From positions 1,520,291 through 1,584,290 of the forward strand of contig NZ_LT629735.1 in the NCBI RefSeq assembly GCF_900104925.1: a DNA stretch of 64,000 nt, given 5' to 3'. A program made the translations under genes and the position numbers. The stretch is from Opitutus sp. GAS368 (GTDB lineage: Bacteria; Verrucomicrobiota; Verrucomicrobiia; Opitutales; Opitutaceae). The notes under the pieces are model-generated. The model was not told where the DNA came from. It saw nothing but the letters and a program-made list of their open reading frames with translations, and searched no databases. Shown here in pieces: positions 46,683 through 52,426 of the stretch; the stretch's first letter is position 1; each line of letters starts with the position of its first letter.

Positions 46683-47545
46683 GCGCCGATGGGGTGCCAG
46701 GTGGTCTTGAATTCGAGGTGGTCGCGGAGGTCGTAGAGACTCTGCGCCTTGTCGGAGAACCAGTCGACCGGCTCCTCGGCCTTGGCGAGCTTCACCCGCT
46801 TCACGCTCTCGGCCGCGCCGAGCTTGAGCGCCTTGCGCTCGTCGGCGCTGGCCACGCCCGCGATGGCGCGGAGGTGGGTGTGCGTCGCAAAAGTCGGGAC
46901 CATCTCCTTGCGGAAACCGGTGAGCAGGTTGACCACCCCGCCGGGCAGGTCGCTTGTGGCGAGCATCTCGCCGAGCACAATCGCCGGATAGGGCTGCGCC
47001 GTGGAGGCGAGCGCGACGACCGTGTTGCCGCTGGTGATGGCCGGGGCGATGAGCGACACCAGCGCCAGCAACGGCGCCTCCTCGGGCGCGAGCAGGCCGA
47101 CGATGCCCATGGGTTCGGTGACAGTGAAGTTGAAGTGCGGCGAGGCGACGGGGTTTACGTTGCCAAGCACCTGCTCGTATTTGTCGGCCCAGCCGGCGTA
47201 ATAGATGAGGCGGTCGATCGTCGCGGCGATTTCCCTGGCGGCGGCGGGCCTGGATGCGCCACCGACCAGGAGCGCGTCGGCCATGTCGGCCTTGCGCGCC
47301 TCCAGCATCTCGCCAAGGCGGTAGATGATCTGGCCGCGGTTGTAGGGCGTGCGCCTGGCCCAGCCCGGGCCGGCCTTGGCGGCGGCCTCGACGGCGTTGC
47401 GCAGGTCCTTGCGGGTGCACTGCGGGATGTTGGCGAAGAAGCTGCCGGCGGCGTCCTTGATCGGGAAGGTGCGCGCGCTCTCGGAGCGGATGAAGGCTCC
47501 GCCGACGTAAACCTTCGGGGTCTTGGTGATGGGCAGGCGGCTCAT
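46679..47545 (-). CDS. Truncated aldehyde dehydrogenase-like protein without catalytic domain
   Basis: A 288-residue protein that aligns with the N-terminal NAD-binding half of aldehyde dehydrogenases (VYVGGAFIRSESARTFPI, EPMGIVGLLAPEEAPLLALV, ITSGNTVVALAS, LPGGVVNLLTGFRKE), but stops before the ELGGK and catalytic Cys regions. A compact charged tail (residues about 245-288) replaces the catalytic domain. It overlaps both neighbours by 4 bases and looks like a maintained gene, not a fresh pseudogene. It may pair with the full-length enzyme encoded upstream. Confidence 0.85.
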   Translation of the reverse strand: MSRLPITKTPKVYVGGAFIRSESARTFPIKDAAGSFFANIPQCTRKDLRNAVEAAAKAGPGWARRTPYNRGQIIYRLGEMLEARKADMADALLVGGASRPAAAREIAATIDRLIYYAGWADKYEQVLGNVNPVASPHFNFTVTEPMGIVGLLAPEEAPLLALVSLIAPAITSGNTVVALASTAQPYPAIVLGEMLATSDLPGGVVNLLTGFRKEMVPTFATHTHLRAIAGVASADERKALKLGAAESVKRVKLAKAEEPVDWFSDKAQSLYDLRDHLEFKTTWHPIGA

Positions 47546-48921
47546 GTGGTGGCGGCGTTTTCGGCTTCGATTTCAGTGCTGGGCGCGTCGCCCTGCAGGT
47601 AGGATTTTTCTTTGTAGGCTCTGGCGACAAAGACGTAGAACGCCACGCAGCCGATCGAGAGTGCCGCGAAGAAATTGTAGTAGGACGCGCCGTGCAGTTT
47701 CACGGTGCCGTCGGGATTGGCGATGAACACATGGACGAGCGCCGTGAAGAGATTGCCGGCGGAAACCGCGAGCAGGTAGATGGCCTGCACCATCGCCTTC
47801 ATGTGCTTCGGGGCCTGGGTGTAGGCAAACTCGAGACCGGTGATCGACACCATCACCTCACCCGCCGAGAGCAGCGCGTAGGCGGGCAGTTGCCAGCCGA
47901 TGCTGGGTCGCAGGCCGGCGGCGATCTGGGTCTCGATCCAGGCGCTGACGAGGAACGAGAGCCCGGTGACGATCAGCCCGATGCCGATTTTGCGCAGCGA
48001 CGTGAGCCGCCACACGCGATCGATCGCCGGGTAGATCACGTATTGGAAGAGCGGGATGAACGCCAAGATCATGATCGCGTTGAGCGCCTGGATTTGGGCC
48101 GCAAGCCAGTCGATGCCGGCGAAGTGCAGGTTCATCTTCTGCGCCTGCGTCACCCACTCGCCGCCGCTCTGGTCCCAGAGCGACCAGAAGACGGCAACAA
48201 ACACGAAGATGATCGCGATGCGACCGAGGGTTGCGAATCCCTCGGCGTTGAAGGTGTCGCGCAGGAAGGTCTTCCCGCCCGGCGGGATGTGCGCGTATTT
48301 GTAGCGGCCGCTCCAGAAAATCACCGTGGCCAGCAGCATGAGCCCGGCTGGCACGCCGAAGGCGAGGCCGGCGCCGGATTTGTCGAGCAGGACCGGGATG
48401 AGCAGGATCGAGAAGAACGAGCCGAAGTTCACCGAGAAGTAAAACCAGCCGAAGGCGCGGGCGAGGAGATGCTGGTTGCCGGCGCCGAATTGGTCGCCGA
48501 CATGCGAGGACACGCAGGGTTTGATGCCGCCGGCCCCGATGGCGATCAGCGTGAGGCCCAGCGTCAGGCCGAGCCGCGTGTGGTCAAACGCCAGCACCAG
48601 GCTGCCGAGGCAGTAGACCAGCGAGAGGCGGATAATCATGTTGTATTTGCCCCAGAAGGCATCCGAGACGATCGCGCCGATCGCCGGGAAGAAGTAGTTG
48701 GCCGAGAGGAACAGGTGATACCATTTGTTTGCGTCGTTCTCGCTCATCGGCGCCAGCGTGCCGCTGCGGTCGACCAGATACTTCGTCATGAACACGACGA
48801 GGACGGCGCGCATCCCGTAGAAGTTGAACCGCTCGGCGGCCTCGTTGCCCACGATGTAGGGGATGCCCGGCGGCATCGTGGTCAGTTTCTGCGGGGCGGT
48901 GAGATACGGGGTGTTAGACAT
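47542..48921 (-). CDS. POT/PTR family peptide:H+ symporter-like MFS transporter
   Basis: A 459-residue protein with about 12-14 helices. The POT signature ExxER is present in GNEAAERFNFYGMRAVLVVF, and the late PTR motif FAYTQAPKHMKAMVQAIYLL is clear. Family members import di/tripeptides, and some carry other small solutes. Here it is in a deoC/aldehyde dehydrogenase cluster, so a nucleoside-derived or aldehyde-linked substrate should be considered. The stop overlaps the truncated aldehyde dehydrogenase start. A GxxExxY element lies 13 bases upstream of its ATG. Confidence 0.92.
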   Translation of the reverse strand: MSNTPYLTAPQKLTTMPPGIPYIVGNEAAERFNFYGMRAVLVVFMTKYLVDRSGTLAPMSENDANKWYHLFLSANYFFPAIGAIVSDAFWGKYNMIIRLSLVYCLGSLVLAFDHTRLGLTLGLTLIAIGAGGIKPCVSSHVGDQFGAGNQHLLARAFGWFYFSVNFGSFFSILLIPVLLDKSGAGLAFGVPAGLMLLATVIFWSGRYKYAHIPPGGKTFLRDTFNAEGFATLGRIAIIFVFVAVFWSLWDQSGGEWVTQAQKMNLHFAGIDWLAAQIQALNAIMILAFIPLFQYVIYPAIDRVWRLTSLRKIGIGLIVTGLSFLVSAWIETQIAAGLRPSIGWQLPAYALLSAGEVMVSITGLEFAYTQAPKHMKAMVQAIYLLAVSAGNLFTALVHVFIANPDGTVKLHGASYYNFFAALSIGCVAFYVFVARAYKEKSYLQGDAPSTEIEAENAATT

Positions 48922-48934
48922 CAGGATTGGGGAA

Positions 48935-49370
48935 AACCACGAATGGACACGAATTCACACGAATGGGATCAGAGGATAATCCGCTCCCACTCCAGTTTGG
49001 CGCGCTTGAAATTAATGATGAGGCCGACACGCAGTTTGGTGATCCGAAGATAATTCAGCATCTGGCCGCGCTCCAGATCGGTGATGCGTTCAATGACCTT
49101 GGTATCAACGACCACGACACCGCCTGCGATAAGATCCGGGACAAATTCAGCGACCTGAATGCCCTTGTATAGCACATCAAAGCGTCGCTGTTGTTCGCAA
49201 GAGATACCCTTGAGTTTAAACTCAACCACCAACGCATTTTCATAAGGCTTCTCATGGAGCCCATGTCCCACTTCCTTGAGCACTTCGAGGGCACAACCGA
49301 CAACCGAGTATACCAGCTCCTTATGGAGGATTTGGCCCTCTTCGTGTCCATTTGTGTCCATTCGTGGTTT
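48935..49370. mobile_element. Inverted-repeat element carrying a GxxExxY gene
   Basis: The left arm (48935-48963) begins AACCACGAATGGACACGAAT and continues TCACACGAA. The reverse complement of the right arm (ending at 49370) matches it at about 26 of 29 positions. The only gene inside is the GxxExxY gene, which uses the right arm for its start codon and first seven codons, and stops 5 bases from the left arm. The unit exactly fills the gap between the aldehyde dehydrogenase and POT genes. No transposase or target duplication was identified, so mobility is inferred. Confidence 0.6.
48969..49361 (-). CDS. GxxExxY protein (PD-(D/E)XK nuclease-like)
   Basis: A 130-residue protein with the family signature GLHEKPY (Gly34, Glu37, Tyr40). 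The family is placed with PD-(D/E)XK-type nucleases; here the candidate metal site is Asp76 in VPDLIAG and Asp86-Thr-Lys88 in VVVDTKVI, with Asp in place of the usual Glu. The start MDTNGHEEG is encoded by the right inverted arm, and longer upstream codons run into the aldehyde dehydrogenase gene. Unrelated to the deoC pathway, so probably cargo or driver of the flanking repeat element. No activity has been shown for this protein. Confidence 0.88.
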   Translation of the reverse strand: MDTNGHEEGQILHKELVYSVVGCALEVLKEVGHGLHEKPYENALVVEFKLKGISCEQQRRFDVLYKGIQVAEFVPDLIAGGVVVVDTKVIERITDLERGQMLNYLRITKLRVGLIINFKRAKLEWERIIL

Positions 49371-49371
49371 C

Positions 49372-50880
49372 TCATACCAGTTTGCAGTAGTCGAGCAGGC
49401 CCTGGCGGCCACCCTCGCGGCCGAAGCCGGACTCCTTGTAGCCGCCGAACGGCGACGTGGGGTCGAACTTGTTGTAGGTGTTGGCCCAGACGACGCCGGC
49501 CTTGAGCTCGGTGGACATCTTCAGGATGCGCGAGCCCTTGTCGGTCCACACGCCGGCGCTCAGGCCGTAGGCGGTGTTGTTGGCCTTCTCGACCGCCTCC
49601 TCGAGCGTGCGGAACGTCAGGATGCTGAGCACCGGGCCGAAGATCTCCTCGCGGGCGATCCGGTGGCTCATCGAAACGCCGGAGAAGAGCGTCGGGCGGA
49701 AATAATAGCCCTTGGCCGGCAGCTTGCACGGCGCCTGATAGAGCGTTGCACCCTCCTTCACCCCGGCGGCGACGAGCCGCTCGATCGTGCCGAGCTGCTC
49801 CTTCGAGTTGATGGCGCCAACGTCGGTGTTCTTGTCGAGCGGGTCGCCGACGCGCAGCACCTTGAGGCGGGTCTTCAGTTTCGCGAGCACCTCGGCGGCC
49901 ACCGTCTCCTGCACGAGCAGACGGGAACCGGCGCAGCACACGTGGCCCTGGTTGAAGAAGATGCCGTTGATGATGCCCTCAACGGCCTGGCCGATCGGCG
50001 CGTCGTCGAACACGATGTTCGCCGCCTTGCCGCCGAGCTCCATGGTCATCTTCTTGTCGGTGCCGGCCAGCGAGCGCATGATGATCTTGCCCACCTCGGT
50101 CGAGCCGGTGAAGGCCACCTTCGCCGCAGTCGGGTGGCTCATGACGGCCGCACCCGTGTCGCCGAAGCCGGTGACGATGTTGACGACGCCCGCGGGCAGG
50201 CCGGCGTCCTGGAAGATCTCGGCGAGCTTCAGCGCGGTGATGCTGGTCGTCTCGGCCGGCTTGATGACGACGGTGTTGCCCATCGCCAGCGCGGGCGCGA
50301 GCTTCCACGCCATCATCAGCAGCGGGAAATTCCACGGGATGACCTGGCCGACGACGCCGAGCGGCGCGACCTTCCGGCCGGGCGCCACGTAGTCGAGCTT
50401 GTCGGCCCAGCCGGCGTGATAGAAGAAATGCGCCGCGGCCATCGGGATGTCGAAGTCGCGCGACTCCTTGATCGGCTTGCCGCCGTCCATCGTCTCGGCG
50501 ACGGCAAACTCGCGGGCGCGGTCCTGCAGCAGGCGGGCGATGCGGTAGATGTATTTGGCGCGTTCCTTGCCGGGCATCTTGCCCCAGACGTTATCGTGAG
50601 CCTTCTTGGCCGCGGCGTAGGCCGCCTCGACGTCGGCCGCGCTGCCGTGGGCGATCTCGGCGAGCTTCGATTCGTTAGCCGGATTGATGGAGTCGAAATA
50701 CTTGCCGGAGGCCGGGGCGGTGAACTTGCCGCCAATGAACAAATCGTAGCGGGCCTTGAGCTTCGGGTCGGCGGTCTCGGGCGCGGGATCGTATTCCCAG
50801 AGGTCGCCGAAGATGAGCTCGGGCGCCGGGCGGCCGGCGGACCGGGACGCGGGACGTTTTTTTTCCGTCAGAGTGGGCAT
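49372..50880 (-). CDS. Aldehyde dehydrogenase (NAD-dependent, full length)
   Basis: A 502-residue ALDH with Glu281 in MELGGKAANIVF and catalytic Cys315 in NQGHVCCAGSR; PWNFPLLMMAWK, GNTVVIKPAE and the C-terminal SPFGGYKESGFGREGG are all present. In this cluster it probably oxidises the acetaldehyde released by DeoC to acetate. The start MPTLTEKK was preferred over one 33 bases upstream that overlaps the repeat. An 84-bp inverted repeat separates it from deoC, and a related element with a GxxExxY gene follows it. Confidence 0.93.
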   Translation of the reverse strand: MPTLTEKKRPASRSAGRPAPELIFGDLWEYDPAPETADPKLKARYDLFIGGKFTAPASGKYFDSINPANESKLAEIAHGSAADVEAAYAAAKKAHDNVWGKMPGKERAKYIYRIARLLQDRAREFAVAETMDGGKPIKESRDFDIPMAAAHFFYHAGWADKLDYVAPGRKVAPLGVVGQVIPWNFPLLMMAWKLAPALAMGNTVVIKPAETTSITALKLAEIFQDAGLPAGVVNIVTGFGDTGAAVMSHPTAAKVAFTGSTEVGKIIMRSLAGTDKKMTMELGGKAANIVFDDAPIGQAVEGIINGIFFNQGHVCCAGSRLLVQETVAAEVLAKLKTRLKVLRVGDPLDKNTDVGAINSKEQLGTIERLVAAGVKEGATLYQAPCKLPAKGYYFRPTLFSGVSMSHRIAREEIFGPVLSILTFRTLEEAVEKANNTAYGLSAGVWTDKGSRILKMSTELKAGVVWANTYNKFDPTSPFGGYKESGFGREGGRQGLLDYCKLV

Positions 50881-50895
50881 GGGAGGAATGATTTT

Positions 50896-50979
50896 AACCA
50901 CGAATGGACCCAAATAGACACGAAGATGAATTTAGTCCGACCTGCGGCCATTCGTGTGAATTCGTGTCCATTCGTGGTT
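50896..50979. mobile_element. Gene-less copy of the AACCACGAATGGAC inverted-repeat element
   Basis: The right arm 50951-50979, read on the minus strand, is identical over 29 bases to the left arm of the GxxExxY element (48935-48963). The left arm 50896-50924 is a diverged copy starting AACCACGAATGGACCCAAAT. Only about 26 bases separate the arms. It fills the deoC-aldehyde dehydrogenase gap (12 bases to the deoC stop, 15 to the ALDH ATG). This resembles a MITE-like deletion derivative. Confidence 0.6.
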
Positions 50980-50991
50980 TTGTTCAGTAGC

Positions 50992-51930
50992 TCAGTAGCT
51001 TTCGGCGGCTTCGCTGAAGTAATACGGGGCCTGGTAGGCGCCGGTGCGCTCCTTCTCGATCTGGCGGAGCAGGTCGTTGAGCAGCGAGGAGGCGCCGAAG
51101 CGGTAGCGGGTGTTGTTGAGCCACTCGTCGCCGAGTGTCTCCTTGACGGCGATGAGGAACTGGAGGGCCTGCTTGGCGGTGCGGATGCCGCCGGCGGGTT
51201 TCATCGCGATGGGGGTGCCGGTATCGAGGTAGAAGTCGCGGATGGCCTCGATCATCACCTGGTTGTTGCCGAGCGTGGCGTTGAGCGAGGTCTTGCCGGT
51301 GCTGGTCTTGATGAAGTCGTTCGGCCGCAGCACGCGCATGGCGAGGAAGGACGCGGCGCGGATGTTGTCGTAGGTCTCCAGCTCGCTGACCTCGAGGATG
51401 ACCTTGAGGGTCGCCGGGCCGCAGGCCTGCACCACGGCGGCGATCTCGTCCTGCACCAGCTGGAACTCGCCCGCGAGGAACGAGCCGCGGTTGATGACCA
51501 TGTCGATCTCGTCCGCGCCATCGGCGACGGCGGCCTTCACCTCGGCGAGGCGGGTCTTGAGCGGGGCCTGGCCGGACGGAAAGGCGGTGGCGACCGACGC
51601 AATGCGGACGGGTGTGTCCTCGCCCAGCGCACGGCGGGCGTATTTCACCATGGACGGATAGACGCAGACGGCGGCGACGGTCGGGACGTCGGGGTCATCG
51701 GAGGGGCTGAGCGCCTTCTGGCAGAGCGAGGCGACCTTGCCGGGCGTGTCCTTGCCCTCGAGGGTGGTGAGGTCGACCATCGAGGCGGCCAATTTCAGGC
51801 CGAAAAGCTTCGCGCCCTTCTTGATGCTGCGGGTGGTGTATTTGGCGACACGCTCTTCGATGCCCACCTGGTCAACGGTGCCGATATCATGGAACAACCG
51901 CCCGAAAGCGGCCTGCGCTGTGCCTGTCAT
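50992..51930 (-). CDS. deoC: Deoxyribose-phosphate aldolase
   Basis: A 312-residue class I aldolase. The Schiff-base lysine lies in DFIKTSTGKTS and the second essential lysine in AMKPAGGIRTAKQA; DEIDMVINRG and VILEVSELETY are also conserved. It splits 2-deoxyribose-5-phosphate into glyceraldehyde-3-phosphate and acetaldehyde in nucleoside breakdown. First gene of the minus-strand cluster with two aldehyde dehydrogenase homologues and a POT transporter. The start MTGTAQAAFGRL is the first ATG after the divergent thioesterase. Confidence 0.96.
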   Translation of the reverse strand: MTGTAQAAFGRLFHDIGTVDQVGIEERVAKYTTRSIKKGAKLFGLKLAASMVDLTTLEGKDTPGKVASLCQKALSPSDDPDVPTVAAVCVYPSMVKYARRALGEDTPVRIASVATAFPSGQAPLKTRLAEVKAAVADGADEIDMVINRGSFLAGEFQLVQDEIAAVVQACGPATLKVILEVSELETYDNIRAASFLAMRVLRPNDFIKTSTGKTSLNATLGNNQVMIEAIRDFYLDTGTPIAMKPAGGIRTAKQALQFLIAVKETLGDEWLNNTRYRFGASSLLNDLLRQIEKERTGAYQAPYYFSEAAESY

Positions 51931-52024
51931 GGTTCGCGTAATATCCGACCTCCGCCCCTTGAAAACAACGCCAAAGTCGGCCGGCGCTTGCCAGTCGCCC
52001 GGCCCCGGCCTACCCTCGCCCCGC

Positions 52025-52426
52025 ATGTCCCATCCGCCTGCCCCCACCTCCTCCGAGCCGCAAGGCGAGCTGGTCATCCGCACCATCGCGATGCCAGCGG
52101 ACACCAACGCCAACGGCGACATCTTCGGCGGCTGGCTGCTCTCGCAGATGGACCTCGGCGCCGCCATCTATGCGCGCAACCTTTCCCGCTCCCGCGTCAC
52201 GACCGTCGCCATTGACGCGATGACGTTCATCGCGCCCGTCTACGTCGGCGACATCGTCAGCTGTCACGCCACCCTCCTCAAGGTCGGCCGCACCTCGATG
52301 CGCATTGCGGTCGAGGCCTGGGCCCAGCGCACCAAGGGCGGCGAGCTGGTGCGCGTCACCGCGGGCGTGTTCACCTACGTCGCCATCGATGATGCCGGCC
52401 GGCCCCAGCCCGTGCACCGGACCTGA
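52025..52426 (+). CDS. Acyl-CoA thioesterase (YciA/cytoplasmic hotdog type)
   Basis: A 133-residue hotdog protein with the YciA-type motif NANGDIFGGWLLSQMDLGAA and TTVAIDAMTFIAPVYVGD. It hydrolyses short to medium acyl-CoA esters in the cytoplasm. The ATG at 52025 gives the usual length. Divergent from deoC; a small exported NTF2-like protein follows after 15 bases. Confidence 0.92.
   Translation: MSHPPAPTSSEPQGELVIRTIAMPADTNANGDIFGGWLLSQMDLGAAIYARNLSRSRVTTVAIDAMTFIAPVYVGDIVSCHATLLKVGRTSMRIAVEAWAQRTKGGELVRVTAGVFTYVAIDDAGRPQPVHRT

Follow-up and report, generated by a model that had tools for sequence, protein, structure and literature searches.

A GxxExxY nuclease-like gene between inverted arms of tandem units: a candidate minimal selfish element in Opitutus sp. 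GAS368 and many other bacteria

Insertion sequences and MITEs have a gene-bearing form with terminal inverted repeats and also short gene-less forms. The RAYT/REPIN system (REPtron) is described as a gene of nuclease class with cognate repeats, with dispersed gene-less inverted doublets and with co-evolution of repeat and protein (PMC3116915, PMC8266576). The repeat is there a palindrome tagged with GTAG or CGTC (PMC3733652). A small ORF within a terminal inverted repeat is also found in 23S rRNA intervening sequences, where an element with an S23p ORF, a 28-bp terminal inverted repeat and an overall length of 428 nt has been termed selfish (PMC4990558). A match to the GxxExxY domain has been noted at the expected position of cas4 in another report (PMC8934634); a CRISPR link was considered here and then dropped. 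GxxExxY genes are common, with at least 586 confirmed stretches in species genomes found from one narrow peptide pattern, yet the word GxxExxY was found in only two papers of the open PubMed Central library.

The locus presented here lies in a window of 64,000 nucleotides from Opitutus sp. GAS368 (G000 in the comparisons below). A sequence-only reading of the window had described arms of about 26 matching bases in 29 around the gene, the start codon and first seven codons inside one arm, the stop codon 5 bases from the other, and a unit that fills its intergenic gap; measurement agrees on all these points. The gene (48969..49361, minus strand) encodes 130 amino acids. The arm at its 3' side (48934..48963, plus strand) has three CACGAAT-type units and the arm at its 5' side (49341..49370, minus strand) also has three; both are 30 nt long, they are complementary at 27 of 30 bases (90%) and they are 377 nt apart. 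The in-frame ATG at 49361 on the minus strand is within the upstream arm, which encodes MDTNGHE, and the stop codon (48969-48971) is separated from the other arm by 5 bases. Between the start of a transporter gene (48921) and the stop of an aldehyde dehydrogenase gene (49372) the unit leaves 12 bases and 1 base. The conserved flanks used for site comparison are all on the minus strand, and we take them to be a POT-type transporter (47542..48921), an aldehyde dehydrogenase (ALDH, 49372..50913) and a deoC-like gene (50992..52167); gene names outside the TIGR, Pfam or record annotation are putative, here and below.

A gene-less pair with the arms of the window cassette is found about 1.5 kb away in the deoC/ALDH gap (50896-50979). 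Its two arms (50896..50924, plus strand, and 50951..50979, minus strand) enclose a loop of 26 nt (50925..50950) that differs from the loops of the 12 other copies compared. The 20-mer AACCACGAATGGACACGAAT with at most 3 mismatches has 4 matches in the window compared with 0 in 100 shuffles, and occurs at 60 places in the 4.15-Mb one-contig genome, where the reversed-pattern control gives 0. A terminator or promoter role of the arms was rejected, since the region 48850-51050 has 0 promoter-like and 2 terminator-like sites (shuffle mean 2.2 terminator-like), none of them on the arms.

All 11 GxxExxY genes in G000 have inverted arms and each pair has its own sequence; at L038 the arms are further out, around an additional insertion. 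To test for arms, the 180-bp left flank was aligned to the reverse-complemented right flank, and the score was set against those from 100 alignments with a shuffled right flank; the control was made with shuffles of each locus, mis-paired flanks being inflated by near-identical loci. Arms were found (p≤0.05) at 140 of 157 GxxExxY loci, mostly bacterial, and no shuffle reached the score at 130 of them; the loci are the best-scoring family matches and not a random sample, and 8 of 165 had been left out before the count because they were short (L048, L051, L066, L094, L097, L101) or at a contig edge (L151, L171). The proportion is similar in the different sets: 11/11 in G000, 23/26 in its relatives, 20/22 in the phylum sample, 20/20 in further picks chosen by hand from a list of matches and 66/78 among named loci from GTDB species genomes. 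Pseudo-genes of equal length in the window reached p≤0.05 in 10 of 124 cases, with one unreached by any shuffle, and ribosomal S15 genes of the relatives in 2 of 26 cases, with none unreached (4 of 30 S15 loci were left out as short). On these two controls, chance was rejected as the origin of the arms.

Named records with arms include Verrucomicrobia, cyanobacteria, Chloroflexota, Planctomycetes, Acidobacteria, Bacteroidetes, several proteobacterial classes, Spirochaetota and Omnitrophota. Among archaeal records, arms are found in L199, labelled Methanosarcinales archaeon, and the flank test finds none in a Methanothrix record (L149). At 17 of the 157 loci the test does not reach p≤0.05; the motif is still visible by eye in L043, L046 and L134, and no motif is seen by eye in L065, L109, L148 and L168. 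Carriage by plasmids or phages is not frequent with the window protein as sole query (E≤1e-5): eight plasmid records out of 72,556 gave a match, and none of the 50,697 phage records did. The arm test is positive in three of the eight plasmid homologues (L383, L385, L386) and misses p≤0.05 in five. One of these plasmids, NZ_CP155749.1 from Sphingomonas (L383), has a cassette with CGCGAAG-type arms between fabD and fabG. On a Fusobacteria plasmid (CP102406.1, L382), the GxxExxY gene is seen by eye to be flanked by copies of about 20 bp, AGATTTAATCCGTGTACCTAT, that are direct and not inverted. The proposal that gene and arms form one unit is thus upheld at most loci, and the arm-less homologues named as its counter-case exist as a minority, consisting of the 17 loci and the five distant plasmid homologues below significance.

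The arms are built up of tandem units, usually three, at a pitch of 9-10 bp; each unit combines a short spacer with a core of 7 nt, CRCnnAn. Arm self-identity peaks at offsets 9-10 (0.42 and 0.36), compared with 0.28-0.30 in shuffled arms, and the best unit offset is 8-10 in 110 of the 122 arm pairs in the period analysis. Arms could be typed at 108 of the 157 loci (score ≥28 and at least three cores), and 24 kinds of core were found in them, for example CACGAAT, CACTAAT, CACGGAA, CGCGGAT, CACAGAG and CGCAAAG. Agreement of unit letters is 0.86 inside one arm and 0.50 between loci. A single AACCACGAATGGAC-type motif flanking the genes at a fixed distance, for which the sequence-only reading had suggested a check, is not what was found; the skeleton is common to all, but the arm sequence is particular to the cassette, and for this reason a universal motif at fixed distances was rejected.

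The left and right arm of a cassette differ in 324 of 834 spacer cells (0.388). The core letters agree better, with mismatches in 11/548 at letter 7 (0.020), 26/548 at letter 5 (0.047), 32/548 at letter 2 (0.058) and 144/548 at letter 4 (0.263), where each core was identified in one arm and its letters were then looked up in the partner arm, using the alignment with the greatest similarity between left and right. Because the core letters agree between left and right and the spacers do not, recognition, and not pairing alone, seems to be selected. The pattern fits a protein that would read repeated sites about one helical turn apart, rather than a stem kept for pairing alone.

The arm letters also vary together with the protein. 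Among the 108 typed loci, pairs with 25-35% protein identity agree on average at 1.30 of the four variable core letters and pairs above 80% at 4.00, the latter from 14 pairs that are largely orthologues at the same site. For pairs below 60% identity the Mantel r is 0.548 and is reached by 0 of 2000 permutations, though it arises partly from the mixing of sets. Within subsets, r is 0.194 in close relatives and 0.358 in the phylum, each with 0/2000. In the broad named set the co-variation is not significant (r 0.031, 585/2000 permutations); the range of this set was narrowed because it was gathered with peptide patterns of one subfamily. The nearest neighbour below 60% identity shares the arm type in 0.22 of loci, where the permuted mean is 0.104 and the maximum 0.222, so the observed value equals the permuted maximum and does not exceed it. 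In the LLE subfamily, 71 of 72 loci have G as core letter 7, and in the FLE/FVE and L[DH]EK groups 25 of 29 have T or A.

The window protein matches the GxxExxY family TIGR04256 (E 3e-36, 124.3 bits, cut-off 35) and PDDEXK_3, PF13366 (E 4e-33, 114.7 bits, cut-off 22), the latter being its only match in the Pfam scan (E≤0.001). Residues G17, E20, L27, D59, K71, Q83, Y87 and N100 are invariant in 29 sequences. These sequences contain the conserved D, the (E/D)xK and the QxxxY, which we take to be the RecB/Cas4-like motifs of a PD-(D/E)XK nuclease. The predicted model has a pLDDT of 95 and its nearest structure is 4ic1, SSO0001, presumably a Cas4, with a Foldseek E of 6.2e-4 and a Z of 10.4 (98 residues aligned, rmsd 3.0). 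Lambda exonuclease is at Foldseek rank 2; a Holliday-junction resolvase (Z 7.8) and R.SwaI (Z 7.7) come next in VIA-align with middling values, where rows below about Z 8 were taken to show only the common PD-(D/E)XK core. No relative in the PDB was found by sequence (best E 0.63). Cas4 proper has conserved cysteines for an Fe-S cluster, and no cysteine is invariant or nearly invariant in the alignments here; the fold alignment omitted four named loci (L193 and L198, both with an in-frame stop, as well as L204 and L210). By its predicted fold the protein resembles a small Cas4/lambda-exonuclease-like PD-(D/E)XK nuclease, although a shared fold does not show function. The PF13366 match, the motifs and the predicted fold agree with the class to which the sequence-only reading had assigned it. 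Profile searches in TIGR and Pfam gave no transposase family for the enclosed gene. In ten pairs of cassette proteins dN is 0.02-0.14 and dS ranges from 0.84 to saturated, and this low dN relative to dS indicates that the protein is maintained by purifying selection.

Thirteen gene-less inverted pairs were read out in G000. They are 76-116 bp long and intergenic by eye, with similar arms and loops of 18-58 nt. The average loop similarity in 78 pairs is 9.51 compared with 9.31 for shuffled loops, so loops as mutual copies were rejected; gene ends are not visible in the loops by eye. Since unrelated loops are found between similar arms, it seems unlikely that the gene-less hairpins were recently copied from each other. 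Their number is linked to the cognate gene. With own arms excluded and among the matches listed, there are 8, 8, 14, 16 and 39 CACGAAT arm copies in the five genomes of the genus with the cassette, compared with 0-8 in the 16 without (p 0.0011), and 3-44 CACTAAT copies in six genomes with the cassette compared with 0-17 in 15 without (p 0.0024); these p values treat genomes as independent and ignore shared ancestry. Without the window genome they are 0.0031 and 0.0063, respectively. Cognate status was taken from the gene and arm places listed, with the arm places of G002, G006 and G009 outside that listing, and G014, which has CACTGAT arms at the nadE/hemL site described below, was counted as lacking the cognate. 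One exception is G016, with 17 CACTAAT copies and no adjoining GxxExxY gene among the matches listed. These dispersed hairpins, and a copy number tied to the cognate gene, make the earlier comparison with RAYT/REP pairs apt.

In a 400-kb sample of G000 (L315-L334) 50 inverted repeats were found, compared with 3 after shuffling. Roughly half of the 50 are REPIN-like palindromes of the GTAGG or GGTGGA type, and another 7 consist of CRCnnAn-type units. In the same sample, arms in reversed orientation surround a gene that is presumably flavin-reductase-like (L325:9607-10256), and an ordinary resident gene can thus be flanked by arms. Other unit-built gene-less hairpins, of the GACAGAATGAACAGAAT type and the AATCGTTCTC/GAGAACGATT type, were seen in the ALDH/POT gap in L237 (G004) and L240 (G019), and in L242 (G017), L249 (G014) and L255 (G012).

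The comparison of the deoC-ALDH-POT operon covers 19 of 20 loci, each from a different genome of the genus; the omitted one is L252 (G020), whose contig ends at the transporter. The cassette is found in the ALDH/POT gap in G000 and G011, in the deoC/ALDH gap in G004, G010 and G018, and in neither gap in 14 of the 19 genomes. All five operon cassettes have ATG GAC ACN AAT in frame through the arm. The deoC/ALDH gap is short (8-11 bp) in G005, G007, G011, G015 and G019, and the ALDH/POT gap (10-29 bp) in G002, G005, G006, G007, G008, G009, G013 and G015. In G000 and G004 both flanking proteins are 96-97% identical, the cassette proteins are 66% identical and the cassettes occupy different gaps. 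Between G000 and G011 the identity is 80% for the cassette protein, 76% for the transporter and 93% for ALDH.

The nadE/hemL gap is shown for 20 of 21 genomes, without G013, which starts inside the gene. It has a CACTAAT cassette in six genomes and a CGCTAAT cassette in three (G001, G004, G010). In G014 (L356) a CGCTAAT cassette is broken off after 85 bases, its remainder is gone and a CACTGAT cassette directly follows; 73 of these 85 bases are the same as in the start of the G001 cassette. A gene-less CACGGAT-like hairpin is seen by eye in G019, other genes are found in G007, G009 (where a lone arm is kept) and G018, short repeats in G003, G011 and G016, and a gap of 37 bp in G002, G006 and G008. 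In L354 (G018) and L372 (G007) the gap is filled by a duplicate of the 5' part of hemL and by further small ORFs that may be toxin-antitoxin-like. G004 is nearest to G000 (hemL 97%), yet both arms differ and the cassette proteins are 63% identical, while G012 and G017 (hemL 87% and 85%) have cassette proteins 89% and 92% identical to that of G000. The difference between G000 and G004 ends at the arms, and the flanking genes run on almost unchanged. Empty orthologous sites, the search for which had been suggested in the sequence-only reading, are thus present in both regions, together with swapped ones.

Among 48 cassettes compared in the genus, 32 are found in 10 sites common to at least two genomes and 16 are unshared, that is, unshared among these 48, as the genus holds more (L346 was omitted as short). 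Since 32 of the 48 keep a common site, the gene-bearing form seems to jump only rarely, and it is the gene-less hairpin that is dispersed. One cassette, L121, is at another site than its relatives L050 and L058 (87% and 84% identity). In 54 same-site pairs, which are not independent, the two arms of one cassette score 44.6 on average compared with 33.9 for the same arm across genomes (Wilcoxon p 2e-4; 33/54 pairs). Pairs with less than about 75% protein identity account for nearly all of this excess, and at higher identity orthologous arms are usually closer. When filled and empty sites are compared by eye no target-site duplication is legible, the ends being too variable.

A similar architecture was found in another gene family. 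Four-helix-bundle genes (TIGR02436) are also placed between inverted unit-built arms, in 5/5 cases in G000 and 18/22 in relatives (L080-L085, L286-L314; 8 of 35 loci were left out as short). Their units are mostly 7 bp, with a self-identity of 0.66 at offsets 7 and 14 and a best offset of 7 or 14 in 17 of 23. The exceptions are L286 and L312 in G043, which have 9-bp GGCACAAAG units similar to those of GxxExxY cassettes. Two gene families with such arms speak for a general architecture and also for a unit set by the enclosed protein, L286 and L312 excepted.

At the level of sequence, the comparison shows the association of gene and arms, the unit structure, the agreement of cores between left and right, the joint variation of protein and arms in the phylum, a hairpin number that depends on the presence of the cognate gene, the purifying selection, and sites that are occupied, empty or swapped. 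We think it rather probable that the nuclease and its cognate arms are a minimal selfish element with non-autonomous hairpins, which would resemble RAYT/REPIN while using an unrelated enzyme; that the protein binds and cuts DNA and that copies are made is what we infer. The element would consist of an arm of tandem recognition units, the GxxExxY nuclease gene and the inverted arm, about 400-480 bp in all, filling the space from one gene's stop codon to the start codon of the next. The nuclease most likely recognises the units of its own arms (the 7-nt CRCnnAn core, repeated at about one helical turn), whether these are on its cassette or on gene-less hairpins that share the core. It would probably cut DNA at these units, perhaps once the inverted arms have become single-stranded or have extruded, and repair or template switching might then spread or restore arms in other intergenic gaps.

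It is unlikely, in comparison, that the arms serve a stable host gene as operators or as signals for processing, with the protein binding them to control itself or to act on transcripts or DNA structure for the host. The many cassettes that keep their site within the genus, the strong purifying selection on the protein and the apparent recognition of arms as units rather than pairs would suit such a gene, but the same gaps are empty, swapped or filled with broken cassettes in other genomes, dozens of arm copies are distant from the gene, and a related cassette is found elsewhere (L121 compared with L050 and L058, 84-87% identity). The existence of arms in other settings might instead suggest that an unrelated transposase moves MITE-like inverted arms, with the GxxExxY and four-helix-bundle genes as passive passengers. 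Gene-less arms, four-helix-bundle genes of similar architecture (two of them, L286 and L312, with GxxExxY-like 9-bp units) and the reversed arm pair around an ordinary reductase-like gene are all compatible with this. However, passengers would not explain that the arm letters track the protein, that the unit length depends on the gene family (mostly 7 bp for four-helix-bundle and 9-10 bp for GxxExxY genes) and that the number of arms tracks the cognate gene, which makes this explanation improbable.

Least probable, and in our opinion very doubtful, is an element at the RNA level whose arms pair in the transcript and are processed in the same way as 23S rRNA intervening sequences. The elements are located between genes that are probably co-transcribed, and the architecture is similar to that of an intervening sequence with a 28-bp terminal stem around a small ORF in 428 nt (PMC4990558). 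Against this, the spacers of the arms mismatch at 0.388 while the core letters hold, which is unexpected from pairing alone, and the window copy is outside rRNA.

The selfish element of nuclease and cognate arms could also be one member of a larger group. Tentatively, and with less confidence than for the element itself, we suggest that bacteria have a widespread class of selfish elements, as yet undescribed, with short unit-built inverted arms, in which the unit length and letters would be set by the small protein enclosed (9-10 bp for GxxExxY, mostly 7 bp for four-helix-bundle proteins). Each protein with its cognate hairpins would be a private recognition system in one genome, and the specificity of arm and protein would diversify jointly, even in place at one site. 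If so, GxxExxY genes and a share of the short intergenic hairpins gain one explanation, as self-maintaining pairs of nuclease and arms, and the life style of RAYT/REPIN has arisen also with an unrelated enzyme. The cassettes would further provide families of matched DNA sites and proteins for studying how reading specificity changes in a small nuclease.

No described pair of repeat and nuclease with a matching enzyme or repeat build was found in the open PubMed Central literature. The element shares with insertion sequences and MITEs a gene-bearing form with terminal inverted repeats and short gene-less forms, but no transposase domain was found, its terminal repeats are cassette-specific and built of tandem units, and the loops of its short forms are unrelated. 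As in the 23S rRNA intervening sequence, a small ORF is enclosed by a terminal inverted repeat; here, however, it is placed in a gap between protein genes, the protein is different and the arms are made of cassette-specific recognition units. The predicted fold and the D-(E/D)xK and QxxxY motifs are those of Cas4/RecB-like and lambda-type PD-(D/E)XK nucleases, whereas the GxxExxY protein has only about 125 residues, lacks an invariant or nearly invariant cysteine and is encoded between inverted arms. The closest likeness is to RAYT/REPIN. In both, a gene has cognate repeats, gene-less inverted doublets (hairpins) are scattered between genes, and repeat and protein co-vary. The GxxExxY enzyme is of the PD-(D/E)XK class and not an HUH/Y1 transposase, and its arms are tandem 9-10-bp CRCnnAn units and not a tagged palindrome. 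G000 has nine matches to Y1_Tnp (RAYT-type, L071-L079), which are located elsewhere, and four of them (L071, L075, L077, L078) have palindromes of the GTAGGG or GGAGG type; since these palindromes are of another kind, the arms were rejected as REPs of RAYT. By analogy, the element would work in the same way as a RAYT/REPIN pair, but it is not one.
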